Under the pieces are notes generated by a model, which did not search any database, was not told the DNA's origin, and saw only the letters and a list, made by a program, of their open reading frames with translations. A DNA stretch of 64,000 bases, taken from positions 1 to 64,000 of the forward strand of contig NZ_JAKZEW010000010.1 in NCBI RefSeq assembly GCF_022548875.1. Reading direction: 5' to 3'. The position numbers and the translations under genes were made by a program. Of this stretch, positions 2,600 to 45,968 are shown in pieces; position 1 is the first letter of the stretch; each line of letters opens with the position of its first letter. The stretch is from Glycomyces sp. L485 (lineage in GTDB: Bacteria; Actinomycetota; Actinomycetes; Mycobacteriales; Micromonosporaceae).

Positions 2600-3640
2600 G
2601 TGCGTACCGCTGCAGCGACTCCAGTGACGTCCCCATTTCTCGCGGCCTGCCGGGGCGAGGAGCCCGATCGGGTTCCGGTCTGGTTCATGCGCCAGGCCGG
2701 GCGCTCCCTGCCCGAGTACCGGGAGGCGCGGGCGGGCACCACCATGCTGGAGGCCTGCCGGACCCCTGAGCTCGTCGCCGAGATCACCATGCAGCCGGTC
2801 CGCCGCTACGGCACGGACGCGGCCATCTTCTTCTCCGACATCGTCGTGCCGCTCGCCGCAATCGGCGTCGACATCGAGATCGTCCCCGGGGTCGGCCCGG
2901 TCGTCGCCGAGCCGTTCCGCACCGAGGCCGACGCCGATCGCCTGCGCAACCTCGACCCCTGCGACGTCGGCTACGTGACCGAGGCGATCGGCCTGCTGGT
3001 CAAGGAGCTCGGGGAGACCCCGCTCATCGGCTTCGCCGGCGCCCCGTTCACCCTCGCCTCCTACCTCATCGAGGGCGGCCCGTCGCGCGATTACGCCAAG
3101 ACCAAGGCGCTCATGCGCTCCCGCCCCGACGTGTGGCACTCCATCGCCTCCAAGCTGGCCGCGATCTGCGGCGAGTTCCTCCGCGTCCAGGTCGAGGCCG
3201 GCGCGAGCGCGGTCCAGCTGTTCGACTCCTGGGCCGGGGCCCTGTCGGAGGCCGACTACCGCCGCTTCGCGCTCCCGCACTCCACCGCCGCGCTCATGGG
3301 CGTCGCAGATTCGGTGCCGCGCATCCATTTCGGTGTCGGCACCGGGCACCTGCTCGAAGCGATGGCCGAGACCGGCGCCGAGGTCATCGGCGTAGACTTC
3401 CGCATCCCGCTCGACCAGGCCGCGGCGCGGCTGCCGGGCAAGACCCTCCAGGGGAACCTCGACCCGACCGCGATCCTCGCCGACGACGAACCGCTCATCG
3501 CCGAGACCGACGAGGTCCTGCAGGCCGGTCGCGCCGCCCGGGGCCACATCTTCAACCTCGGCCACGGCGTCCTGCCCGACTCCGACCCGGCGAAGCTCAA
3601 GCTCGTCGTCGACCGCGTCCACGAGGCGACACGGCGATGA
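2600..3640 (+). CDS. hemE: Uroporphyrinogen III decarboxylase
   Basis: HemE removes four acetate carboxylates from uroporphyrinogen III to give coproporphyrinogen III in the cytosol. The 346-residue product carries the family signature [11 protein letters not shown] (31-41), whose arginines bind substrate, then [13 protein letters not shown] and FDSWAGALS. The frame is open far upstream, but homology begins just after the GTG at 2600 and length then matches the family (about 340-360). The stop overlaps the next start (ATGA, 3637-3640), so it is translationally coupled to hemY. With hemY and hemQ it forms the coproporphyrin-dependent heme branch. Confidence 0.95.
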
Positions 3641-4995
3641 GGGTCCTCATCGTCGGCGGCGGCATCACCGGTCTGGCCGCCGCGCACCGCCTGCGCGAAC
3701 GGCTCGGCGAGGACGCCGAGATCGTCGTCGCCGAACGCTCCGACCGCCTCGGCGGCAAGATCCACACCGTCGACTTCGCCGGCCGGCCGGTCGAGGCAGG
3801 CGCCGAGTCGCTCCTGGCCGCCCGCCCCGAGGCCATCGACCTGGCGAAGGCCGTCGGGCTCGGCGACGCGCTCGTCCACCCCTCCGGTCTCAAGCCGGCG
3901 TTGAGTCTCGACGGGCGGCTGCGGGACTTCCCGACCGGCACCATGATGGGTATCCCGGCCGACCCCGCGGACGTCGCCGCCGTCGCCGACGTCAAGGAGG
4001 GCCACGGCTCGGACCGGCCCATCCTCGCGCCCGGCGCCGACATGTCGGTGGGGGAGCTGGTGCGTTCTCGCCTGGGCTCGGAAGTGCTCGACCGGCTGGT
4101 CGCGCCGATGCTCTCCGGGGTGTACGCCGGCGATGTCGACCGGCTCTCGGTGACCGCCGTCATGCCCCAGCTCGCCTCGGCCCTGCGCCGCCATTCGCGC
4201 CTGACCGACGCCGTCGCCGAGGTCAAGCGGCCCGCAAGTGGAAAACCGGTGTTCGCCACCGTGGACGGCGGTCTGGGCCGGCTCGTCAAGGCGACGTCCG
4301 CCGAGGCGCGCGCGGACGTGCGGATCGGCATGACCGTCCGCGAGCTGCGCCAGACCCCGTACGGCTGGGAGGTCGTCGCCGGGCCCGTGCCGGACCCGAT
4401 GAAGGTCACCGCCGACGCGGTCATCCTCGCCGTCCCCGCCTCGCCCGCCGCCAGGCTTCTGCGCGGCGTCGAACCCGAGGCCGCCGCCGCGTTGTCGGGT
4501 GTCGCCTACGCCTCGGTGGCCTTGGCGGCCTTCGCGTTCGACCACATCGACCTGCCCGAGCGGTCCGGTTTCCTCGCCCCGGCGAGCGCCGGGAGGGCCG
4601 TCAAGGCCGCTACCTTCTTCTCCCAGAAGTGGCCGCATCTGGGGACCCGCCGTGCCATCCTGCGCGTCTCCATGGGGCGGATCGGCGACGAGGCGCTGCT
4701 CCAGAGCGACGACGCCACGCTCGCCAAGACCGCGCTCAGGGAGCTCGGCGAGCATCTCGGGCAGCGGATCCCCGAACCGGTCGCGCAGCGCGTCGACCGA
4801 TGGGGCGGGGCGTTGCCGCAGTACGCGCCGGGCCACCCCGAGCGCATCCGCGCCGCGCGCGAGAAGCTCAGGGAGCACCGCGGCATCGCGATCGCCGGCG
4901 CGGCCGTCGACGGCGTCGGCATCGCCGCGTGCATCGCCTCCGGTCGGGCCGCCGCCGACGAGATCGCCGCCCAACTGGCAACCGAATCCGACTAG
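3637..4995 (+). CDS. hemY: Coproporphyrinogen III oxidase (HemY/CgoX; protoporphyrinogen-oxidase family)
   Basis: This 452-residue FAD enzyme starts at an ATG overlapping the hemE stop by 4 bp. It has an N-terminal Rossmann motif [13 protein letters not shown] (7-19), a glycine-rich LGGKI motif near residue 40, and a C-terminal flavin-binding stretch [16 protein letters not shown]. The family is annotated as protoporphyrinogen oxidase. Next to hemQ in an actinobacterium, it most likely oxidises coproporphyrinogen III to coproporphyrin III; that substrate choice is inferred from context. It ends 17 bp before hemQ. Confidence 0.92.
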
Positions 4996-5012
4996 TTTCG
5001 AAGGGCCGCAAC

Positions 5013-5726
5013 GTGGCACAGCAGGCGAACAATCCGAACGCCCAGCGCATCAAGGAACTCAACGAGACCGTCCGGTACACACTGTGGTCGGTGTTCCGCG
5101 TGGCCGAGCCGTTCCCGTCGATCCGGCAGGACCTGATCTCGGACACCGAGTCGTTCTTCGGGAAGCACTGCCCCGACGCGGGCGTGACGGTGCGCGGCAC
5201 CTACGACCTGACCGGGATGCGCGCCGACGCCGACGTGATGGTGTGGTGGCACGCCGAATCCTCCGACCAGCTGCAGAAGGCCTACTCCGACCTGCGGCGC
5301 AGTGCCTTCGGTCGGCACCTGGCGCCGGTGTGGTCGAACATGGCGCTGCACCGGCCGGCCGAATTCAACCGCAGCCACATCCCGGCGTTCCTCGCAGAGG
5401 AGGAGCCGCGGAAGTTCGTGTGCGTGTACCCGTTCGTGCGGTCCTACGAGTGGTACCTGCTGCCGGACGAGGAGCGCCGCGACATGCTGCGCGAGCACGG
5501 CATGCAGGCCCGGGACTACCCGGACGTGCGAGCGAACACGGTGGCGAGCTTCGGGCTGGGCGACTACGAGTGGATCCTGGCGTTCGAGGCCGACGAGCTG
5601 CACCGGATCGTGGACCTCATGCGCGAGCTGCGCGCCTCCCGAGCCCGGAGGCACGTGCGCGAGGAGATCCCGTTCTTCACAGGCCGCCGCCGCACCATCG
5701 GCGACATCATCGACGACCTGCCCTAG
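5013..5726 (+). CDS. hemQ: Coproheme decarboxylase (chlorite dismutase family)
   Basis: HemQ performs the last step of the coproporphyrin-dependent pathway, decarboxylating coproheme to heme b. The 237-residue protein shows family blocks [16 protein letters not shown] (137-151, containing the candidate active-site tyrosine Y139), [11 protein letters not shown] with candidate heme ligand H162, [14 protein letters not shown] and a C-terminal PFFTGRR. The GTG at 5013 is preceded at 7 nt by GAAGGG (5000-5005). It is third in a hemE-hemY-hemQ cluster. The ferrochelatase that should act before it is not in this window. Confidence 0.93.
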
Positions 5727-5729
5727 CCC

Positions 5730-6158
5730 GTGGAGCCGAACGCCTGGCTCAGCGCGCTGGCCGTTGTCGCCGCCGTGTTGCTGCTGATCGAGGGCGTGCG
5801 CCAACTGCGGCGCCGCTGGATGCTGGTCAACGTGGACGGCGAGAGCATGGAGCCGGCGCTGCGAGACGGCGACGAGGTGCTGGCCAAGCGCACCCGCAGG
5901 ATCGAGGTCGGCCAGATCGTCGTGGTCGCGGCCCCGGACCCGCTCCTGGGCTGGGCGGAGCCTCCGAAGAAGGGCCGAGGCCCGTGGTGGGTCAAACGTG
6001 TCGCGGCCGTCGCGGGCGAGCCGATGCCGGGATCGGACGAGACCGTGCCGCCCGGTCACTACTTCCTGCTCAGTGACAATCCGGTCGGCGAGGACTCCCG
6101 CCGTCACGGCGTCTGCCCGGCCCGGATGATCGCAGGCGTCATGGTCCGGAAGTTCTGA
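5730..6158 (+). CDS. S26-family signal peptidase-like protease
   Basis: The 142-residue protein has one N-terminal membrane segment (about 6-22), then the S26 catalytic elements: S39 in GESMEPAL, a lysine in WWVKRV (K89), and the C-terminal [15 protein letters not shown] box. It is much shorter than housekeeping LepB. It resembles the small S26 proteases that in some actinomycetes mature nickel superoxide dismutase, but no sodN lies nearby, so that role is unsupported. The start is a GTG three bases after the hemQ stop, suggesting cotranscription with the heme genes. Confidence 0.75.
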
Positions 6159-6223
6159 CGACCAAGCCGATCCTAAGAACCGGGCGCTTGGTCCCGCGAT
6201 TCGGGACGTGGCAGACTTGGTTC

Positions 6224-8068
6224 ATGCCAGCGCTTCGTTCACGCACATCCACCCACGGCCGCCAGATGGCCGGCGCACGCGCGCTGTGGCGCGCCACCGG
6301 CATGACCGATTCGGACTTCGGCAAGCCGATCATCGCCGTGGCCAACTCGTACACCCAGTTCGTGCCCGGGCACGTCCACCTCAAGGAGCTCGGCGGCATC
6401 GTCGCCGAGGCCGTCACCGAGGCCGGCGGCGTCGCCCGCGAGTTCCACACCATCGCCGTCGACGACGGCATCGCCATGGGCCACGGCGGCATGCTCTACT
6501 CGCTGCCCAGCCGCGAGATCATCGCCGACTCCGTCGAGTACATGGCCAACGCACACTGCGCCGACGCGCTGGTGTGCATCTCCAACTGCGACAAGATCAC
6601 CCCGGGCATGCTCATGGCCGCCCTGCGCCTGAACATCCCGGTGGTCTTCGTCTCCGGCGGCCCGATGGAGGCCGGCAAGACCGTCGACAGCAACGGCGTG
6701 GTCACACGCAAGCTCGACCTCATCGACCCGATGGTCGCCGCCGCGAACGACGACGTCTCCGACACCGAACTCGGCGTCATGGAGGCCGCCGCCTGCCCCA
6801 CCTGCGGCTCCTGCTCGGGCATGTTCACCGCCAACTCCATGAACTGCCTCACCGAGGCCATCGGCCTCTCCCTGCCGGGCAACGGCTCGACCCTGGCCAC
6901 CCACGCCTCCCGCAAGGCCCTGTTCTCCGAGGCCGGGCGCGTGGTCATGGACCTGTGCAAGCAGTACTACGGCAAGGACGACGAGTCGGTCCTGCCTCGG
7001 AGCATCGCCACCCACGACGCGTTCGAGAACGCCATGGCCCTCGACGTCGCGATGGGCGGCTCCACGAACACCGTTCTGCACCTGCTCGCGGCCGCCCGCG
7101 AGGCCGGCCTGGACTTCTCGGTGGCCGACATCGACGCGGTCTCTCGCCGCGTCCCCTGCGTCTCGAAGGTCGCGCCGAACTCGCCGGACTACCACATGGA
7201 GGACGTCCACCGCGCCGGCGGCATCCCCGCGATCCTCGGGGAGCTCTACCGCGGTGGCCTGCTGCACGAGAACGTCCACTCGGTCCACTCTCCGAACCTC
7301 GCCGAGTGGCTCGGCAAGTGGGACATCCGCGCCGAGAACCCCGCCCCCGAGGCGATCGAGCTGTTCCACGCCGCGCCGGGCAACGTCCGCACCACCGAGC
7401 CGTTCTCCACCGAGAACCGCTGGGCCAGCCTGGACACCGACGCCGAGAACGGCTGCATCCGCTCGGTCGAGCACGCTTACACCGCCGACGGCGGCCTCGC
7501 GGTGCTGTTCGGCAACCTCGCCGAGGACGGCTGCGTCGTCAAGACGGCAGGCGTCCCCGATGAGAACCTGACTTTCTCCGGCCCCGCCCATGTCTTCGAG
7601 TCCCAGGACGACGCCGTCCAGGGCATCCTCGACAAGTCCGTCAAGGAGGGCGAGGTCGTCGTCATCCGCTACGAGGGCCCCAAGGGCGGGCCGGGCATGC
7701 AGGAGATGCTGTACCCGACCTCGTTCCTCAAGGGCCGCGGCTTGGGCCGCAAGTGCGCGCTCATCACCGACGGCCGCTTCTCCGGCGGCACCTCGGGCCT
7801 GTCGATCGGCCACGTCAGCCCCGAAGCCGCCGGCGGCGGCCTCATCGGCCTGGTCGAGGACGGCGACGTCATCGAGATAGACATCCCCGCCCGCCGCATC
7901 GAGCTCAAGGTCGAGGACGCGACCCTGGCCGAACGCCGCGTGGCCCAGGAAAAGCGCGAGAACCCGTTCACGCCGGTCGACCGCGACCGCACCGTGAGCC
8001 AGGCCCTGCGGGCCTACGCCTCGATGGCCACCCCGGCCAGCGACGGCGCCGTCCGCAAGGTCCAGTAG
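6224..8068 (+). CDS. ilvD: Dihydroxy-acid dehydratase
   Basis: IlvD dehydrates 2,3-dihydroxy-3-methyl acids to the 2-keto acids that precede valine, isoleucine and leucine. The 614-residue product is family length. It has Fe-S cluster motifs NCDKITPGM (C122) and [17 protein letters not shown] (191 onward), and the C-terminal [11 protein letters not shown] signature. The ATG at 6224 gives the usual N-terminus ending in [16 protein letters not shown]. It stands apart from ilvBNC (3 kb downstream, same strand) and is followed by its own strong terminator. Confidence 0.96.
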
Positions 8069-36301: not shown

Positions 36302-37468
36302 TCAGGGCAGTTCGAGCATCCGGTCGAGCGCCGCCCGGGCGTGCTTGGCGGTCGCCACGTCGACGGTGATCTGGTTCGGCACGCGCCCGGCCACGAGCTC
36401 CTCGAGCGCCCACACCAGGTGCGGCAGGTCGATCCGGTTCATCGTCGAGCAGTAGCACACCGTCCGGTCCAAGAACGAGATCTCCTTGTCCGGGTGCCGG
36501 TTCGCCAAGCGCCGCACTAGATTCAGCTCAGTGCCCACGGCCCACGAGCTGCCGGGCTCGGCCGCTTCCAGAGCCTTGATGATGTACTCGGTCGAGCCCA
36601 CGTAGTCGGCGGCGGCGACCACCTCGTGCTTGCACTCGGGGTGGACGAGGATGTTCACCTCGGGCTTGCGCTCGCGCAGCTCTTCCACGCAGTCGAGTGT
36701 GAAGCGCCCGTGGACCGAGCAGTGGCCCTTCCACAGGATGATCTTTGCGTCGCGCAGCTCCTCGTCCGTCAGCCCGCCGTTCGGCTTGTGCGGGTTGTAG
36801 AGCACGCAGTCCTCAAGGCTGAAGCCCATCTCGCGGACCACGGTGTTGCGGCCCAGGTGCTGGTCGGGCAGGAACAGGACCTTCTCGCCGCGCTCGTAGG
36901 CCCACCTCAGCGCCCGCTCGGCGTTCGAGGAGGTGCAGACGATGCCGCCCTCGCGGCCGACGAAGCCCTTGATCGCGGCCGAGGAGTTCATGTAGGTCAT
37001 CGGGACGGTGGCCTCGGCGATGCCGGAGGCCGCGAGGTCCTCCCAGCACTGCTCGACCTGCGAGGCCGTCGCCATGTCCGCCATCGAGCAGCCGGCGGCC
37101 AGGTCCGGAAGGACGACCCGCTGGTGGTCGCCGGTGAGGATGTCGGCGGACTCGGCCATGAAGTGGACGCCGCAGAACACGATGTACTCGGCGTCGGGGC
37201 GGGCCGCGGCCTGCTGGGCGAGCTTGAAGGAGTCGCCGGTGACGTCGGCGAACTGGATGACCTCGTCGCGCTGGTAGTGGTGCCCGAGGATGAAGACGTC
37301 GTCGCCGAGGGTCTCCTTGGCTGCCTCGGCGCGAGCGACGAGGTCCGGGTCGCTGGGCGCGGGCAGCTCGCCGGGGCAGTCGACGCCGCGCTCCGAGCCG
37401 GGGTCGGTGCCCCTGCCGAGCAGCAGCAGCGCGGTCTGGGTGGGAGCAGGTTCGTTGAAGCCCGTCAT
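36302..37468 (-). CDS. nadA: Quinolinate synthase
   Basis: NadA condenses iminoaspartate with dihydroxyacetone phosphate to quinolinate using a [4Fe-4S] cluster. The 388-residue protein has GHHYQRDEV, candidate cluster cysteines C99 (FCGVHFMAE), C178 (VCTSSNAE) and C340 (in CYCSTMNRI), and the PDQHLGRNT block. ATG 37468 is preferred over the upstream in-frame start at 37492. nadB and nadC are not adjacent; nadE lies 20 kb away. It is divergent from the glycerate kinase gene. Confidence 0.93.
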   Translation of the reverse strand: MTGFNEPAPTQTALLLLGRGTDPGSERGVDCPGELPAPSDPDLVARAEAAKETLGDDVFILGHHYQRDEVIQFADVTGDSFKLAQQAAARPDAEYIVFCGVHFMAESADILTGDHQRVVLPDLAAGCSMADMATASQVEQCWEDLAASGIAEATVPMTYMNSSAAIKGFVGREGGIVCTSSNAERALRWAYERGEKVLFLPDQHLGRNTVVREMGFSLEDCVLYNPHKPNGGLTDEELRDAKIILWKGHCSVHGRFTLDCVEELRERKPEVNILVHPECKHEVVAAADYVGSTEYIIKALEAAEPGSSWAVGTELNLVRRLANRHPDKEISFLDRTVCYCSTMNRIDLPHLVWALEELVAGRVPNQITVDVATAKHARAALDRMLELP

Positions 37469-37554
37469 GTGAGCAATTCTTGCACGTTCCAAGCATCGAC
37501 CGCACTATGCGGTGTGCTCGATTGCTCACTTCTCGAACAGGAATCTGTAAGCGG

Positions 37555-37591: not shown

Positions 37592-38704
37592 GTGCGCATT
37601 CTCATCGCTCCCGACAAGTTCGCCGGCACCATGACCGCAGCCGAGGCGGCGGACGCCATCGCCGACGGCTGGCGCCGCGCCCGACCCGAAGATGAAACCG
37701 ACGCTCTGCCCCTCGCCGACGGCGGCCCCGGCTTCATCGACGTCCTCGAAGCGGCGATCCCCACGGCCGCAAGGCGAACCGTGAACGCCTGCGACCCGCT
37801 CGGACGCCCCGTCGAGGCCGACTACCTGCGCGACGGCGACACCGCCTACATCGAATCCGCCGCGACCTGCGGCCTCCACCTCCTCAACCCCCACGAACGC
37901 GACCCCCGACGCGCCACCACCTACGGCCTCGGACTGGTCATCGCCGCCGCCATCGAGAACGGCGCGAGGCGCATCGTCGTCGGACTCGGCGGCTCGGCCA
38001 CCAACGACGCCGGCGCCGGCATGCTCACCGCCCTCGGCTACACCTGCCGCGACCGCGCCGGCGACGCCCTCCCGTACGGCGGCGCCGCCCTCGCCTCCTG
38101 CGACTCGATCGACGGGCAACCGCGCACCAGAGGCGTCGAGTTCATCGCCGCCACCGACGTCGACTCACCGCTCCTCGGACCTCACGGCGCGACCCGCATG
38201 TTCGGGCCCCAGAAGGGCGCAGAAGAGAGCGACCTGCCGTTCCTCGAATCCGCGCTGGCCAACTTCGCCGAGATCGCCGAGCGCGACCTCGGACCGGGAG
38301 GCGCCGCCGCCTGGCCCGGCGCGGGCGCGGCCGGAGGGCTCGGCATGGCGCTCTTCATCCTCGGCGGCAAGCGCGCCTCCGGCGCGAAGCTGACCTGCGA
38401 GGCCGTCGGCCTGGACGCGGCCGTCGCCGCATCGGACCTGGTCATCACCGGTGAAGGCTCCTTCGACGCGCAGAGCCTGCGCGGCAAGCTCGCCGCCGAG
38501 GTCGCGACCGGCGCCGCCGCCCACGGCAAGCCCTGCCTGGTCCTCGCCGGCAGGTCCGACGTCGACTCCCATCCCGACCTCGCGGGTGTTCATTCGGTCA
38601 CCGCCCTGGTGGGCGGAGTCGAGGCCGCAATGAAAGCGCCGGTCGAGGGCCTGCGGGCGCTGGCGGAGTCGGTGGCCCGTACCTGGAACTACACTCGGGA
38701 ATAG
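37592..38704 (+). CDS. Glycerate kinase
   Basis: The 370-residue protein belongs to the GarK/GlxK type family, phosphorylating D-glycerate with ATP. Evidence: N-terminal RILIAPDKFAGTMTAAEAADAI, LADGGPGFIDVL, VVGLGGSATNDAGAGMLTALG, and C-terminal VITGEGSFDAQSLRGK. GTG 37592 follows a -10 element at leaderless spacing. Neighbours do not indicate a dedicated pathway; it may feed photorespiratory-type or serine/glycerate metabolism, which is inference. Confidence 0.9.
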   Translation: MRILIAPDKFAGTMTAAEAADAIADGWRRARPEDETDALPLADGGPGFIDVLEAAIPTAARRTVNACDPLGRPVEADYLRDGDTAYIESAATCGLHLLNPHERDPRRATTYGLGLVIAAAIENGARRIVVGLGGSATNDAGAGMLTALGYTCRDRAGDALPYGGAALASCDSIDGQPRTRGVEFIAATDVDSPLLGPHGATRMFGPQKGAEESDLPFLESALANFAEIAERDLGPGGAAAWPGAGAAGGLGMALFILGGKRASGAKLTCEAVGLDAAVAASDLVITGEGSFDAQSLRGKLAAEVATGAAAHGKPCLVLAGRSDVDSHPDLAGVHSVTALVGGVEAAMKAPVEGLRALAESVARTWNYTRE

Positions 38705-38789
38705 CGACAGGTCCGGTGCCGTTGGGTACTGTTGACAAGTCGAAGACCCGATCGACGCCGTTGATCCCAACTCACCGAGGGAGCCACAA

Positions 38790-39158
38790 GTGAGCGCAAC
38801 TCAGCAGGCCGAGGACGTCAAGGAGACCACCGCCACCGGTGTGAAGCTCACCGACGCGGCCGCCTCCAAAGTCAAAGCCCTGATCGAGCAGGAAGGTGAA
38901 GAAGGCCTGCGCCTGCGCGTCGAGGTCAGCCCCGGCGGCTGTTCCGGCCTGCGCTACGGGCTGTTCTTCGACACCGACAACCGCGAGGGCGACGTCGTGC
39001 AGTCCTACGAAGGCTTCGAGGTCGTCGTCGACCGCATGAGCGTTCCGTACCTCCAGGGCGCGAGCATCGACTTCGCCGACCGCATCGACGCCCAGGGCTT
39101 CACCATCGACAACCCGAACGCCCAAGGCTCCTGCGCCTGCGGCGACTCGTTCCACTAA
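38790..39158 (+). CDS. erpA: A-type Fe-S cluster carrier (HesB/IscA/ErpA family)
   Basis: The 122-residue protein has the three cluster-binding cysteines of A-type carriers: C51 in GGCSGLRY and C115/C117 in SCACGDSFH. Such proteins deliver Fe-S clusters to apo-enzymes, plausibly including NadA, IlvD and MiaB encoded here. GTG 38790 has GAGGGA 8 nt upstream. The symbol erpA is by similarity of the C-terminal motif; iscA is equally usable. Confidence 0.88.
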   Translation: MSATQQAEDVKETTATGVKLTDAAASKVKALIEQEGEEGLRLRVEVSPGGCSGLRYGLFFDTDNREGDVVQSYEGFEVVVDRMSVPYLQGASIDFADRIDAQGFTIDNPNAQGSCACGDSFH

Positions 39159-39222
39159 AGTCTCACGCGAGACTCCGACAGCCCGGTCGAAACCGCCCCA
39201 TAGCGCGTGTCTCGGCCGGGCT
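39159..39222 (+). terminator. Hairpins after the Fe-S carrier gene
   Basis: A 6-bp stem AGTCTC/GAGACT at 39159-39174 begins at the stop codon region. A wider stem pairs AGCCCGG (39180-39186) with CCGGGCT (39216-39222), followed by CATTTA. Termination is plausible but the loop of the second stem is long. Confidence 0.4.
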
Positions 39223-39260
39223 CATTTATGGCTCGCAAGCGTCGCCAAGGGGGCTACGCC

Positions 39261-40013
39261 GTGTTCGCCTCCGAAACCGACGCCGGTCTGTCCGACAGCC
39301 TCCGACCGAACGAGGTCCTTTCCATGAAGACCGCCGTCTCCGGCTCCTCTGCCGCCGCCATCGCGCACGGGATGAACCAGCTCGGCCATCCGTCCATCGC
39401 CCTCGAACCCAGCAACGCGGAGTTCGACCTCATCGACGTCATGGAGCGCTCCGGGACCCTCGGCCTCGTCCACATCGGCGCCGACGACTCCAAGGTGATG
39501 CTGTCCTACGCCGAGCAGTGCCGCGACCTGGGCCTAGAGTTCAGCGCGGACCCCGGCACCCTCGAAGGCGCCGACGCGGCCGAGTTCATCGACGGCGCGA
39601 AGTTCCTGGTCACCAGCCGGGACCGCTACGAGTTCCTCCAGGCCACCACCGGCATGGCCGACGACGACATCCTCGCGGCGGTCCGCGTGCGGGTCACCAC
39701 CGAGGACACCGACGGCGTCGAGATCGCCGGCCACGACATGGACCGCCAGCGGGTCCCGATCGCCCGCGCCCGCGAGGTCATCGACCCCTCAGGTGTCCCC
39801 GAGGCCTTCCGCGCCGGGCTCCTGGCCGGCATCGGCTGGGGAATGCCGTTGCGCAGGGCGGCCGAGATCGGCAGCCAGCTCGCGGCACTCGCCGCAGAAT
39901 CCGTCGGCGCCGCCGCGTACACGGTCAATCCGGCTGAATTCGTGCATCGCCTGGACGAGTCGTACGGCGCCGCCTGCGCCGCGGAGGCCTCGGCCTACCT
40001 GCTTCCTGAGTGA
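39261..40013 (+). CDS. Degenerate PfkB-family carbohydrate kinase paralogue (predicted inactive)
   Basis: From residue about 65 to the end (250 total) this matches the actinobacterial PfkB/adenosine-kinase-like protein usually found beside this Fe-S carrier: VHIGADDSKVMLSYAEQCRDLG, FLVTSRDRYEFL, RVTTEDTDGVEIAG, and a full C-terminal helix set. The catalytic anion-hole motif, normally close to DPTGAGDAF, reads DPSGVPEAF (175-183), losing both glycines and the catalytic Asp (E181). The N-terminal substrate half is about 60 residues short. GTG 39261 has AAGGGGG 7 nt upstream. Intact frame and codon bias suggest it is still expressed. Confidence 0.75.
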   Translation: MFASETDAGLSDSLRPNEVLSMKTAVSGSSAAAIAHGMNQLGHPSIALEPSNAEFDLIDVMERSGTLGLVHIGADDSKVMLSYAEQCRDLGLEFSADPGTLEGADAAEFIDGAKFLVTSRDRYEFLQATTGMADDDILAAVRVRVTTEDTDGVEIAGHDMDRQRVPIARAREVIDPSGVPEAFRAGLLAGIGWGMPLRRAAEIGSQLAALAAESVGAAAYTVNPAEFVHRLDESYGAACAAEASAYLLPE

Positions 40014-40198
40014 GCTCGACCGATACGCCGGAGTAATGCCGTTTCGCGCCCGGAATCACTCGGGCAACCTGTTTCTCACCTATCAGGATTCAAGTGGTGA
40101 CACGACCGTAATATTCCCGCTGCATTGTCTCTGACGGCCTACCTACAGGTAACAATTTCACAACGGACCCTTACGTTTGATGGTGTTGTGCGACATGG

Positions 40199-40226
40199 TG
40201 TGAGTTATCCCATGACTCAACTCACA
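40199..40226 (+). promoter_or_regulatory. Inverted repeat upstream of oppA
   Basis: TGTGAGTT (40199-40206) and AACTCACA (40219-40226) form a perfect 8-bp inverted repeat with 12-nt spacing, ending 15 nt before the oppA GTG. A shorter GAGT/ACTC pair nests inside. It could be an operator or a 5'-UTR hairpin near the ribosome-binding site. Confidence 0.45.
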
Positions 40227-40241
40227 TCCATGGAGCGACCA

Positions 40242-41900
40242 GTGAGACGAATCCAAATGGCCGTAGCCACGGCCGCGGCCGCCGCACTCGCGCTGACCGC
40301 CTGCGCCGGTGACGAAAGCGACGTCGGAGGCGACGCCGACGGCATCCTCAACATGCAGATCGGCGAGGTGCGCAGCGTGATTCCCGGCGGCTCCGGTGAG
40401 TCCGAGGGCTTCCGCATCATGAAGAACGTCTACGAAGGACTCGTCTACTACGACGCCGACACCGGCGAGGCGAACAATCTGGTGGCCGAGGACATCTCCT
40501 CCGAGGACAACCAGACGTGGACCATCACGATCAAGGAGGGTCTCCAGTTCCACAATGGCGAGCCGGTGGACGCCAACGCCTTCATCCGCTCCTGGAACCG
40601 TACCGCGTACGGACCGAATGCGCTGCCGCTGAACTACTTCATGGCGACCATCGCCGGCTACGACGAGATGAACCCCGAGCCCCTGCCCGAGGAGGAGTGG
40701 GCCGACCCCGAGGTTCCGGAGTTCCCCGAGGCCGAGACCACTGAGCTGTCCGGCCTGACCGCCGTGGACGACCTGACCCTCCAAGTCGAGCTGTCGGCCC
40801 CGTTCATCGGCTTCCCGACCATGCTCGGGTACGAGGCGTTCTTCCCGGTGGCCGAAGAGTGCCTGGCCGACACGGACGCCTGCGAAGAGCAGCCGATCGG
40901 CAACGGGCCCTTCATGTTCGAAGAGCCGTACTCGATCGAGAACGGCGGCACCGCCGTCAAATGGGAGGACTACCAGACCACCGACCAGCCCTCCATCGCC
41001 GGCGTCCAATGGCACGTCTACCTCGAAGGCAACGACTGCTGGGCGGACTTCCTGACCGGTGACATCGACGTCTGCCGCCCGACCGCGGCCGACTACGAGA
41101 CCGCCGTCAACGACCCGGACCTCGCGGAGCGCCGCATCGTCCAGGACGGCACCAGCATCGCCATGCTGGCCTACCCGCTCTACGACGAGAATTTCCAGGA
41201 CGTCAACATCCGCCGGGCCATCTCGGCGGCGATCGACCGCGAAGGCGTGCTCAACGTCATCGGACCCGACCGGTTCAACCCGCTCGACTCGTGGGTCCCC
41301 GAATCGATCCTCGGCGGCGGACGCGGCGTCTGCGGCGAGTACTGCACATACGACCCGGACCTCGCCAACCAGCTGCTCGAAGACGGCGGCGGATGGCCCG
41401 AAGGCGAGCCGCTGCGCATCTGGGTCAACGACTCCAACGACAACCTCGACATCTTCCGCGCCATCGGCGACTCCATCACCGAGACGCTCGGCATCCAGTA
41501 CGAGCTCGTTCCGATGGAGTGGACCGACTTCCTGGCCAACCGCGAAGGACACGACCTCGACGGACCGTTCCGTTCCGGCTGGGGTCCCGACTACAACCTG
41601 AACGAGAACTACCTCGAGCCGATCTACGGCGGCGGCGCCGCCACGAACGACCAAGGCTACGAGAACCCGGAGTACGACGCGAAGATCGCCGAGGCGGCCG
41701 CCGCGGACACCATCGAGGACGCGGTCGAGATCTACGCCGAAGCCGAGGAGATCCTCGGAAACGACATGCCGAGCGCGCCGATCTTCGTCGAGCAGGTCAG
41801 CTACTTCTACAGCGACCGCGTCGACAACGTGATCGTCCACCCGATCTACGCCGGACCTGGCGGTGACGCGGAACTGCGCGACATCGTCATCACGGAGTAG
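40242..41900 (+). CDS. oppA: Oligopeptide-type ABC transporter substrate-binding lipoprotein
   Basis: The 552-residue protein has a signal peptide with lipobox LTAC (Cys 21) and a mature SBP_bac_5 fold: EGFRIMKNVYEGLVYYDADTGEANNLVAEDI, TWTITIKEGLQFHNGEPVDANAFI, IRRAISAAIDREGVLNVI. It captures oligopeptides or related solutes. GTG 40242 is preferred because GGAG precedes it by 7 nt and the signal peptide begins properly; upstream in-frame starts would spoil it. It heads oppABCDF. Confidence 0.9.
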   Translation: MRRIQMAVATAAAAALALTACAGDESDVGGDADGILNMQIGEVRSVIPGGSGESEGFRIMKNVYEGLVYYDADTGEANNLVAEDISSEDNQTWTITIKEGLQFHNGEPVDANAFIRSWNRTAYGPNALPLNYFMATIAGYDEMNPEPLPEEEWADPEVPEFPEAETTELSGLTAVDDLTLQVELSAPFIGFPTMLGYEAFFPVAEECLADTDACEEQPIGNGPFMFEEPYSIENGGTAVKWEDYQTTDQPSIAGVQWHVYLEGNDCWADFLTGDIDVCRPTAADYETAVNDPDLAERRIVQDGTSIAMLAYPLYDENFQDVNIRRAISAAIDREGVLNVIGPDRFNPLDSWVPESILGGGRGVCGEYCTYDPDLANQLLEDGGGWPEGEPLRIWVNDSNDNLDIFRAIGDSITETLGIQYELVPMEWTDFLANREGHDLDGPFRSGWGPDYNLNENYLEPIYGGGAATNDQGYENPEYDAKIAEAAAADTIEDAVEIYAEAEEILGNDMPSAPIFVEQVSYFYSDRVDNVIVHPIYAGPGGDAELRDIVITE

Positions 41901-41914
41901 TCGATTGAAAGCGA

Positions 41915-41945
41915 GCCGCGGGCGGGTCACAGACCCGCCCGCGGC
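41915..41945 (+). terminator. Intercistronic hairpin between oppA and oppB
   Basis: A perfect 13-bp GC stem (41915-41927 with 41933-41945) with a 5-nt loop lies 14 nt after the oppA stop and 18 nt before oppB. There is no T-run. It more likely stabilises oppA mRNA or causes partial termination, giving excess binding protein, as in many such operons. Confidence 0.7.
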
Positions 41946-41963
41946 CTCTAGGACGGAACATCA

Positions 41964-42974
41964 ATGGGACGCTATGTAATTCGGCGAATACTCCAGGGAC
42001 TGCTGACGCTCTTCATCGTGCTGTTCCTGCTGCACTACCTCATGGCGCTGTCGGTGCAGATCCGCGGCAACCCGGCCATCCTCTTCTTCGGCGGGGAACG
42101 CACACCTCCGCCGGCCATGCTCGCCCAGGTCGAGCGGCTCTACGGGCTCGACAACAACTGCTACGAACGCACCGGCGACCCCTGCCTGGTGCCGTTCGTC
42201 GAACGACTCCAGAACTACGCGAGCGGCGACTTCGGAACCACGCTCAACGGCAACCGGAACGTCGGCGAGCTGCTCGGAATCTATATCCCGAACACGCTGC
42301 GGCTGTTCATCTTCGCGACCCTCACCCTGGTGGTCGTCGCAATGGTGCTCGGCACCTGGGCGGCCCGCCACCGCGGCAGGTTCATCGACCACTCCGTCCG
42401 AGGGACTACCATCCTGATCGACTCGGTCCCGGTGTTCCTGATCCTGCTGGCCTACGTGTACATGGCCGCGGTCCCGCTGACCAGGTGGGCCCGAGACATC
42501 TGGGGAACCGAATCGTTCATGGGCCAAGTGTTCAGACCGAACTACAACCCCGACTATCCGTGGACCACGATCCTCGTCCCCGGCATCATCGTCGGCACGG
42601 TCGGTCTTGCGACCCTCACCCGCCTGGTGCGGGCCAGCCAGCTGGAGAACCTCGGCTCCGACTTCGTCCGCACAGCCAGGGCCAAAGGACTCGGGAAGAT
42701 GCGCATCACCATCGTCCACGTGGTGCGCAACTCGATGATCCCCATCGTCACCGGCGTCGGCTACCTGTTCGCGTTCATGCTCTCCGGGGCGGTGCTGACC
42801 GAGGGCATCATGGGCATCCCAGGCATGGGCCGCATGATCTTCCAAGCCGTCCAGCGCCAGGAGACCAACCTGGTCGTCGTCGGCCTGACCGTCAGCGCGG
42901 TCGTCGTGGTGCTCGTGTCCCTCATCGTCGACCTCCTGTACGCCGCACTCGATCCGAGGATCCGCTATGAGTGA
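41964..42974 (+). CDS. oppB: Oligopeptide ABC transporter permease B
   Basis: The 336-residue protein has six predicted membrane helices. It has the OppB/DppB N-terminus MGRYVIRRILQGLLTLFIVLF and the EAA-type loop RTARAKGLGKMRITIVHVVRNSMIPIVT that contacts the ATPases. ATG 41964 is preceded by AGGACGGA. It overlaps oppC by 8 bp. Confidence 0.92.
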   Translation: MGRYVIRRILQGLLTLFIVLFLLHYLMALSVQIRGNPAILFFGGERTPPPAMLAQVERLYGLDNNCYERTGDPCLVPFVERLQNYASGDFGTTLNGNRNVGELLGIYIPNTLRLFIFATLTLVVVAMVLGTWAARHRGRFIDHSVRGTTILIDSVPVFLILLAYVYMAAVPLTRWARDIWGTESFMGQVFRPNYNPDYPWTTILVPGIIVGTVGLATLTRLVRASQLENLGSDFVRTARAKGLGKMRITIVHVVRNSMIPIVTGVGYLFAFMLSGAVLTEGIMGIPGMGRMIFQAVQRQETNLVVVGLTVSAVVVVLVSLIVDLLYAALDPRIRYE

Positions 42975-43890
42975 GCTCGCAGTCCCCAAGCCCGAGCCGG
43001 AGGCGAAACAGGCGTCACTGTGGAAGGACGCCTTCCACACCATGCGCCGACGCCCCGACGTCATCATCGCCCTGGTAATCCTGCTGTTCGTGTTCGCCAT
43101 GGCGGCCTTCCCGGCCCTGTTCACCGACAAGAGCCCCACCAGGTGCATCGGCCGGGAGGCACGCCAGCGGCCCGACACGTGGTTCAGAGGCGAGCACCCC
43201 CTCGGCACCGACGCGTTCGGCTGCGACTTCGCGGCCACCATCGTCCACGGCACCCGGCCCACGATCGTGCTGGCGCTGACCGTCATCGTCCTCGCGGTGC
43301 TCATCGGGCTGGTGCTCGGCATGCTCGCCGGCTACTACGGCGGCTGGCTGGACGCGGTCATCTCCCGGATGCTCGACGTCTTCATCGTCGTGCCGCTGCT
43401 GCTCGGCGCGATCCTGCTGCTCAGCCTCTTCCGCGGCCGAGGCTCCTCGGGCAACGTCATCGAGACCGTCGCACCCGCGGCGATCGCCCTGACGATATTC
43501 GGCTGGATGGAGTTCTGCCGGTACGTGCGAGCGGCGACCATCGAGACCAAGAACCTCGACTACGTCGTCGCCGCCCGCTGCCTGGGCGCCAAGGACCGGA
43601 GGATCATGTTCCGCCACATCCTGCCCAACGCGATCATCCCCGTCACGGCGGTCGTCCCGACCACCATCGGCGCGATCATCGTCACCGAGTCGGCCCTGGC
43701 AGTCCTCGGCATCGGCGTCCAGCCCCCGGCCACCAGCTGGGGCGTCCTGCTGTCGAACGGCACTCAATGGGCGGGCGGCGGCTACATCTACCTGTTCGGC
43801 CTACCGTTGTTGCTGCTGGTACTGACGGTGTTCGCGTTCGCGACCTTCGGCGACGCACTCCGCGACGCCCTCGACCCGAAGCTGAGGTGA
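42967..43890 (+). CDS. oppC: Oligopeptide ABC transporter permease C
   Basis: The 307-residue OppC/DppC-type permease has an N-terminal cytoplasmic segment, a first helix (about 33-53), the GEHPLGTDAFGCDFAATIVHGTRPTI block, an EAA loop AARCLGAKDRRIMFRHILPNAI, and six helices overall. The ATG lies inside the oppB 3' end. It ends 7 bp before oppD. Confidence 0.92.
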   Translation: MSELAVPKPEPEAKQASLWKDAFHTMRRRPDVIIALVILLFVFAMAAFPALFTDKSPTRCIGREARQRPDTWFRGEHPLGTDAFGCDFAATIVHGTRPTIVLALTVIVLAVLIGLVLGMLAGYYGGWLDAVISRMLDVFIVVPLLLGAILLLSLFRGRGSSGNVIETVAPAAIALTIFGWMEFCRYVRAATIETKNLDYVVAARCLGAKDRRIMFRHILPNAIIPVTAVVPTTIGAIIVTESALAVLGIGVQPPATSWGVLLSNGTQWAGGGYIYLFGLPLLLLVLTVFAFATFGDALRDALDPKLR

Positions 43891-43897
43891 CCGACCA

Positions 43898-44927
43898 ATG
43901 GCAGACACGATCCGAGTCGCAGGCGACACCCTGCCGGGTGCCGACATGAACGCCTCGCTGCTCGAAGTCGACGGCCTCCGCGTCGACTTCACCGTCCGGC
44001 GCAAGCGCATCCCCGCGGTGCGCGGCGCCAGTTTCACGCTCGACCAGGGCACGACCCTCGCCATCGTCGGCGAATCGGGTTCGGGCAAGTCCGTGACCTC
44101 CCAGGCGATCATGGGCATCCTCGACTCCCCGCCCGGCCACATCACCGGCGGCGAAGTCCGCCTGAGAGGCGTCGACCTGCTGCAACAGGACGAGGAGACC
44201 AAGCGGACGGTGCGGGCTAACCACATCGCCATGGTCTTCCAGGACGCCCTGTCCGCCCTCAACCCCCTGTGGTCGGTCGGCTTCCAGATCGGCGAGCTCT
44301 ACCGAGTCCACCGGGGCACCAGCCGCAAAGACGCCAAGCAGAAGGCGATCGAACTGCTCGACCTGGTCGGCATCCCCGACGCGAAGAACCGGATCGGTCA
44401 CTACCCGCACCAGTTCTCCGGCGGAATGCGCCAGCGCGTGATGATCGCGATGGCGCTGGCACTCGACCCCGAGGTGCTCATCGCCGACGAACCGACCACC
44501 GCGCTGGACGTGACCGTGCAGGCGCAGATCATGCGGCTGCTCAAGAAGATCCAGCAAGAGCGCAACATGGGGCTCATCCTGATCACGCACGACCTGGGCG
44601 TGGTCGCCGACGTCGCCGACGACGTCGCGGTCATGTACGCCGGGGAGATCGTAGAACAGGCGAGCATCCACGACACCTTCGCCCGCCCGGCCCACCCGTA
44701 CACGAAGGCGCTGCTGCGGGCTATCCCGCGCGTCGACACGGTCGGACGCGAACTGGAGGTGATCCGCGGGCTGCCGCCGAACCCCGCGTCGCTGCCGAGC
44801 GGATGCCCGTTCCACCCGCGCTGCTGGGCGGTCGAACCGAAGAAATGCTCGAGTGAGGTGCCGCCGTTCGAGCCGGTGGCGGACGACCACCGCAGCCGCT
44901 GCCACTTCGCCAAGGAGGTCTACCGCG

Positions 44928-44938
<11 letters not shown>
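43898..44938 (+). CDS. oppD: Oligopeptide ABC transporter ATPase D
   Basis: The 346-residue ATPase has Walker [12 protein letters not shown], signature [15 protein letters not shown], Walker [13 protein letters not shown] and H-loop LITHDLGVV. The C-terminal oligo_HPY region has the cysteine cluster GCPFHPRCW plus a later Cys, which in relatives binds an Fe-S cluster. ATG 43898 follows GAGGTGA. It overlaps oppF by 11 bp. Confidence 0.93.

Positions 44939-45948
<1,010 letters not shown>

Positions 45949-45968
<20 letters not shown>

Follow-up and report, generated by a model that had tools for sequence, protein, structure and literature searches.

A putative lidless pseudoenzyme at the adenosine kinase locus downstream of erpA in Glycomyces

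The gene directly downstream of erpA in Glycomyces sp. L485 is a short open frame with an altered PfkB motif, and the same place is occupied by a full-length kinase in two relatives, denoted here G025 and G034. The question raised by this locus is what the short frame represents: a paralogue with an active copy elsewhere, a gene in decay, an enzyme of altered chemistry, or a protein that is kept for something other than catalysis. We consider it from the sequence of one 64,000-nt stretch (hereafter, the window), in which the gene lies, together with the corresponding loci of related genomes.

Identity, place and start of the gene

The frame ending at position 40013 is open and its C-terminal part is PfkB-like, as originally predicted (PF00294, E = 5.7e-8, residues 107-219 of a 250-aa reading). 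The Pfam score of 32.9 bits exceeds the gathering score of 25.8 and places the protein in the PfkB/ribokinase superfamily, and the closest PDB proteins are chains of Mycobacterium tuberculosis adenosine kinase (AdoK; best E = 1.2e-29). With AdoK the gene has in common both the homology of the large domain and a conserved genomic place (Table 1).

The short form is present, with its frame open, in all 22 Glycomyces genomes searched, where its MKTAV-type start lies 104-300 bp after erpA, and none of the 22 yielded a full-length AdoK at E = 1e-6. A full-length AdoK query matches 298 of 300 genomes sampled from the family, the two without a match being G033 and G244. The 22 Glycomyces match at 6.9e-48 to 1.5e-60 and 276 of the 278 other genomes at 1.8e-126 or better, these surveys (and that of the order, below) giving for many genomes the best E-value, with coverage noted for only part of them. 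Because all Glycomyces searched have the short form after erpA and no full-length copy was found in them, and because nearly all of the other family genomes sampled have an AdoK match, the window gene is, on synteny and sequence, the orthologue of actinobacterial AdoK at the ancestral erpA locus and not the paralogue that it had been called.

An active copy elsewhere in the genome was looked for and none was found; at E = 1e-6, 21 of the 22 genus genomes match the full-length query with this gene alone, and the remaining one (G011) has a second, weak match (E = 1.8e-7, query residues 212-321). We reject the paralogue reading. A PfkB search of the genome that contains the window returned eight places, one of which is the window gene. 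For the other seven, the best NCBIfam models, scanned over the matched stretches only, are IolC (above cut-off), a 1-PFK/hexose kinase (subfamily cut-off passed), one KDG-kinase, two fructokinases and an HMP-kinase (all below cut-off), and one 98-residue stretch has weak matches only.

In the order, 397 genomes were sampled, of which 11 are Glycomyces, and no clear second case of the short form was seen. Nine of these genomes have AdoK matches at only ~1e-8 to 3e-11 and 20 have no match, so that absence of AdoK is not rare in the order. Two genomes have intermediate best E-values (G450, 4.3e-59, 75% complete; G453, 1.2e-24, 63% complete), and these matches may be fragments or further short forms.

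The start of the gene is likely ATG 39324, which gives 229 aa, rather than the GTG at 39261 of the original prediction. In the other 21 Glycomyces, homology to the 250-aa reading sets in at its residues 10-20, around the MKTAV that corresponds to ATG 39324. A GAGG precedes this ATG by 8 nt in the window and likewise in four other genomes (Table 1). On the other side, the GAGG is absent at this spot in most other Glycomyces, a purine-rich stretch also lies upstream of GTG 39261, and two genomes have CTG (G018) or TTG (G009) where the window has its ATG; the start in some congeners may be a few codons further upstream. Glycomyces sp. TRM65418 (L007 and L041) has CTG in place of the usual ATG, so that an upstream GTG is probably the start of translation there. 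The interval 38700-40400 was scanned for sigma-70-type promoters and for terminator-like sites on the + strand, and neither was found.

Table 1. Features at the erpA locus of the window (positions of the window; residue numbers of deletions are those of AdoK)
Feature	Position	Strand	Description and evidence
Quinolinate synthase nadA (putative)	36302..37492	-	Neighbour in the conserved block; relatives have it in the same block
Glycerate-kinase-like gene	37592..38704	+	Neighbour in the conserved block; relatives have it in the same block
erpA, Fe-S cluster insertion protein	38790..39158	+	NCBIfam PRK13623 above cut-off; upstream in 22/22 Glycomyces
In-frame extension from the originally predicted GTG start	39261..39323	+	Mostly outside the homology common to other Glycomyces
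GAGG Shine-Dalgarno-like sequence	39312..39315	+	8 nt before ATG 39324; same spacing in G015, G020, G012 and G002
Lidless adenosine-kinase-like pseudoenzyme (putative)	39324..40013	+	229 aa and stop, likeliest start ATG 39324; orthologue alignment, start comparison, PDB and Pfam matches
Deletion 1 junction	39341..39342	+	Residues 7-46 (40 residues, lid segment 1) missing; alignment with 25 intact AdoKs
Deletion 2 junction	39416..39417	+	~54 residues (about 72-125, lid segment 2) missing; alignment
Deletion 3 junction	39560..39561	+	4 residues (174-177, QLAR of PSQQLAR) missing; alignment
Former NxxE (Mg2+) motif	39615..39626	+	Reads SRDR
Former anion hole/catalytic motif	39783..39809	+	Reads DPSGVPEAF
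Peptide-type ABC transporter cassette (putative)	40125..45968	+	ORFs; start of first gene uncertain

The names given in Table 1 to the glycerate-kinase-like gene, nadA and the peptide-type ABC transporter are those that we take these genes to merit. A solute-binding or first permease gene follows the short gene in 12 of the 12 other Glycomyces contexts checked (L041-L049, L112-L114). A pattern scan did not find the cassette after the AdoK of G025 and G034, where a coxB-like gene stands instead. The proximity of erpA and the transporter is a weak clue to a partner of the protein.

Deletions and changes in the active site

At 229 aa, the protein is 98 residues shorter than its 327-aa orthologue in G025. 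The shortfall had been put at about 60 residues in the N-terminal half; it consists instead of three internal deletions, all in frame and common to the 22 species, which together remove both lid segments and a 4-residue piece of the active site. The lid of adenosine kinase closes over adenosine (PMC8659263, PMC3101181). By alignment, we equate deletions 1 and 2 with the two lid segments of AdoK, so that the two-segment cover of adenosine would be gone. The gene of Glycomyces salinus (L042, 4010-4729) has, where the second deletion lies, ~11 residues more than the other aligned Glycomyces; these may be a lid remnant or a new insertion.

Residue losses were counted against 25 intact AdoK sequences (23 of the family and 2 from other families), a set separate from G034; left out were eight of the sequences L073-L102, for a mismatch of the start pattern (L088, L089, L090, L094, L096, L097, L098 and L101), and the duplicates L025, L026, L030 and L031. 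This set has 137 invariant residues. The Glycomyces proteins lack 54 of them through deletion and have a different residue in all 22 species at 20; a further 21 are retained in part, and 42 persist in at least 21 species. N196 of the NxxE Mg2+ motif is lost in 22/22 and E199 in 21/22; the first glycine of the di-glycine switch is kept in all species and the second (G48) in none; N52 and Q173 are lost throughout, G226 of TTLG is Asp in all 22, and S8, D12, S36 and Q174 fall inside the deletions. D12, N52 and the Gln pair presumably contact adenosine in AdoK.

The anion-hole motif is a less uniform case. Within the family, the catalytic role falls to the Asp of GXGD (PMC5931981). The window reads GVPE here, and the predicted alteration to DPSGVPEAF is borne out; its loss applies to the window and not evenly to the genus, where the motif is degenerate: four species keep GAGD, four keep the Asp without the second Gly, thirteen have Glu, and one (Glycomyces salinus) has Ala. 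The catalytic position is therefore Asp in 8/22 and Glu in 13/22, that is, an acid in 21 of the 22 species. The second Gly is replaced by P, V, H, R, A, S or T in 14/22. All 22 species retain D252, P253 and G255 in the anion-hole turn. Catalytic residues are thus lost as in a pseudoenzyme, though nearly all species still have Asp or Glu in the catalytic place.

The retained acid, the four GAGD motifs and the intact anion-hole turn are the evidence for the main rival of a non-catalytic protein, namely residual chemistry: a lidless ribokinase-fold kinase or phosphotransferase that uses Asp or Glu at GxGD and acts on another substrate. Lidless ATP-dependent kinases of the ribokinase family do exist (PMC5931981). 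Set against this are the loss of both NxxE residues, the replaced second Gly, the Asp at G226 and the deletion or replacement of the presumed adenosine contacts, and we regard an altered enzyme as unlikely. From the same sequence changes, we infer that the short protein no longer phosphorylates adenosine.

Structures were predicted from 10 input sequences at low alignment depth, and the model of the window protein itself is poor (pLDDT 58.5; the top rows of its fold search, at rmsd ~11-13 Å, were not used), as are four of the five models of the Glycomyces harbinensis orthologue (pLDDT 52-62). The fifth is better (pLDDT 77, pTM 0.78) and superposes on M. tuberculosis AdoK (2pkn) over 214 residues at 2.4 Å (Z 25.0), with a chain range that spans the whole kinase. 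This model shows a core of ribokinase type that leaves no room for a lid. Confidence is low (pLDDT <50) for residues 126-154, in the region of the former ATP site and anion hole.

Selection and the order of loss

A gene that has lost so many conserved residues, and that is absent in the related G033, might be a pseudogene caught early in its decay. The codon models argue strongly against this. Over 227 codons of 22 species, omega is 0.065 (GY F3X4) and 0.057-0.163 across five models, as compared with 0.023-0.110 for erpA as a control under the same models (105 codons). When omega is held at 1, the best log-likelihood is -7035 instead of -6215, a loss of more than 800 units at each of three kappa values. 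The raw NG86 pN/pS of 0.396 is well above the model-based omega, but still below 1 (erpA control, 0.238); the excess probably comes from the strong G+C bias of third positions, and we rely on the codon models.

The constraint varies along the protein. It is strongest in residues 201-229 (omega 0.043), is 0.065 in the motif stretch (residues 151-165), and is loosest in residues 1-33 (0.109) and 166-200 (0.105), the latter two being the stretches that would most favour decay. For residues 111-150, and for two variants of this stretch, the regional fit returned omega 1.000, but a fixed value of 0.05 gives a log-likelihood of -1019 versus -1177 at 1.0; we take the fitted value as a failure of the optimiser, with ~0.05 favoured by the fixed values. 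The intact frame is thus under purifying selection in all 22 species, the deletions are in frame, and simple decay is rejected; even an early stage of it we hold to be highly improbable. The original prediction had likewise argued against plain pseudogenisation, and this stands, since omega is low and the window frame is not shifted, although 4/22 orthologues keep GAGD.

Within Glycomyces, the fastest columns include positions 48, 52, 173 and 257 (94th to 97th percentile), and D258 is at the 62nd percentile. As a group, 18 chosen active-site columns are not significantly faster within the genus than the other AdoK-invariant columns (permutation p 0.11). Taken together with the omega values by stretch, these rates indicate that the protein is conserved, that parts of the substrate and donor pocket drift, and that the catalytic acid is only partly released.

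Two related genomes bear on the order of these events. The AdoK of G034 (L110, 3383-4384) is full-length, with the lid and NxxE present, and has GVGN for GVGD, the catalytic Asp being replaced by Asn (codon AAT); its Q173 is Ser. The locus of G033 (L109) retains nadA, glycerate kinase and erpA, and AdoK was found neither beside them nor in the rest of that genome. Following erpA in G033 is a 151-aa frame (3467-3922), and beyond it, on the opposite strand, are ABC-transporter-like frames that include a solute-binding-like one (4024-7970).

A tree built from parts of nadA, glycerate kinase and ErpA (19 genomes, among them 6 Glycomyces of the 22; in some genomes one of the genes is absent or incomplete) groups G034 and G033 with Glycomyces (support 99) and places G033 with Glycomyces at support 92, the monophyly of Glycomyces itself having a support of only 56. 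An unrooted AdoK tree separates the 25 intact sequences from Glycomyces and G034 with support 100. On the simplest reading, catalysis was probably lost before the lid, whose deletion came afterwards, in Glycomyces. Each side lineage is represented by a single genome, and the losses may have occurred in parallel.

A probable non-catalytic role and comparison with known systems

We consider it rather probable that the Glycomyces AdoK orthologue is a conserved pseudoenzyme with a non-catalytic structural or regulatory role. A pseudokinase of this kind had been proposed for the window gene, and the part of that proposal concerning a pseudokinase kept by selection holds up on the open frames, the low omega and the lost catalytic and pocket residues; its regulatory or structural role is one that we infer. 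The mechanism might run as follows. Catalysis would have become dispensable once adenosine could be cleared by a deaminase, the catalytic residues would then have decayed, and the useless lid would have been deleted, while a second, non-catalytic function held the core under selection. The remaining Rossmann-like core, with its conserved C-terminal helices, would be kept for binding another protein or a ligand. A binding or regulatory role is favoured by analogy with FLN1/FLN2 and yeast Gal3p, which are taken up below.

The genomes are consistent with the first of these steps. S-adenosylhomocysteine hydrolase, which yields adenosine, is found in all 22 Glycomyces (in two pieces in G008). Adenosine deaminase models match all 22 as well, 21 of them strongly (the weak match is in G020, an assembly of 3.3 Mb in 360 contigs), and adenosine can therefore probably leave by deamination. 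This exit, as read from the gene content, probably makes the loss of AdoK bearable.

The second function need not be new. An ancestral, catalysis-independent moonlighting function of AdoK at the erpA locus might have been retained and only the enzyme part dropped; the erpA synteny kept in all 22 species would fit, as would the part of the C-terminal signature (Ser, Ala and Pro at AdoK columns 321, 322 and 325) that the full-length G034 already has. No partner was found, however, and 48 alignment columns that are conserved in at least 21/22 Glycomyces, yet differ from the consensus of the intact AdoKs or are variable in them, suggest a new rather than an old constraint. We think it quite unlikely that the protein is kept for such an old function. 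A broader scenario can be entertained with some reserve: a large-lid nucleoside kinase died and secondarily shed its lid, in reversal of the trend of lid growth proposed for the ribokinase family, its core being either recruited anew or kept for an ancestral moonlighting function alone. If this sequence of death and lid loss is true, G034 and G033 catch its steps, and a non-catalytic AdoK function in actinobacteria could be isolated experimentally.

The locus would then be a natural experiment in which the catalytic and non-catalytic functions of a widely conserved nucleoside kinase are separated, and it would display stages on the way from enzyme to pseudoenzyme, with the catalytic residue lost and then the lid excised, or the gene deleted. 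It also carries a warning for annotation, as a Glycomyces gene annotated as "carbohydrate kinase" at this locus probably does not encode a functional adenosine kinase. The literature searched (one collection, judged by its listings) offered no other AdoK-derived protein that is secondarily lidless, fixed in a genus and encoded at the native locus.

PfkB-type proteins with apparently non-catalytic roles are known. The plastid FRUCTOKINASE-LIKE proteins FLN1 and FLN2 of plants are of PfkB type and occur in plastid RNA polymerase complexes, and a search for their substrate failed; the same source names them, with yeast Gal3p, as carbohydrate-kinase-like proteins in regulatory roles (PMC3409070). 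A structural role in the complex has been proposed for them (PMC4036507). They differ from the protein described here in being plant proteins that group with fructokinases, and the Glycomyces protein has no known link to RNA polymerase.

A second comparison is with the lidless ribokinase-fold kinases, which like the Glycomyces protein have a ribokinase fold with little or no lid. Examples are ThiM, ThiD and pyridoxal kinase. These are active enzymes and are taken as primitively lidless, whereas the Glycomyces lid would have been lost secondarily from a large-lid enzyme.

The nearest relative in both sequence and fold is M. tuberculosis AdoK itself (PDB 2pkf, 2pkm, 2pkn, 4pvv, 6c9r), which has the same Rossmann-like core and, we assume, a similar erpA/glycerate-kinase neighbourhood. 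Its lid forms the dimer interface (PMC3101181). AdoK of M. tuberculosis has both lid segments, the NxxE motif, the Gln-Gln pair and GxGD, whereas the Glycomyces protein lacks the first three of these and usually the fourth.
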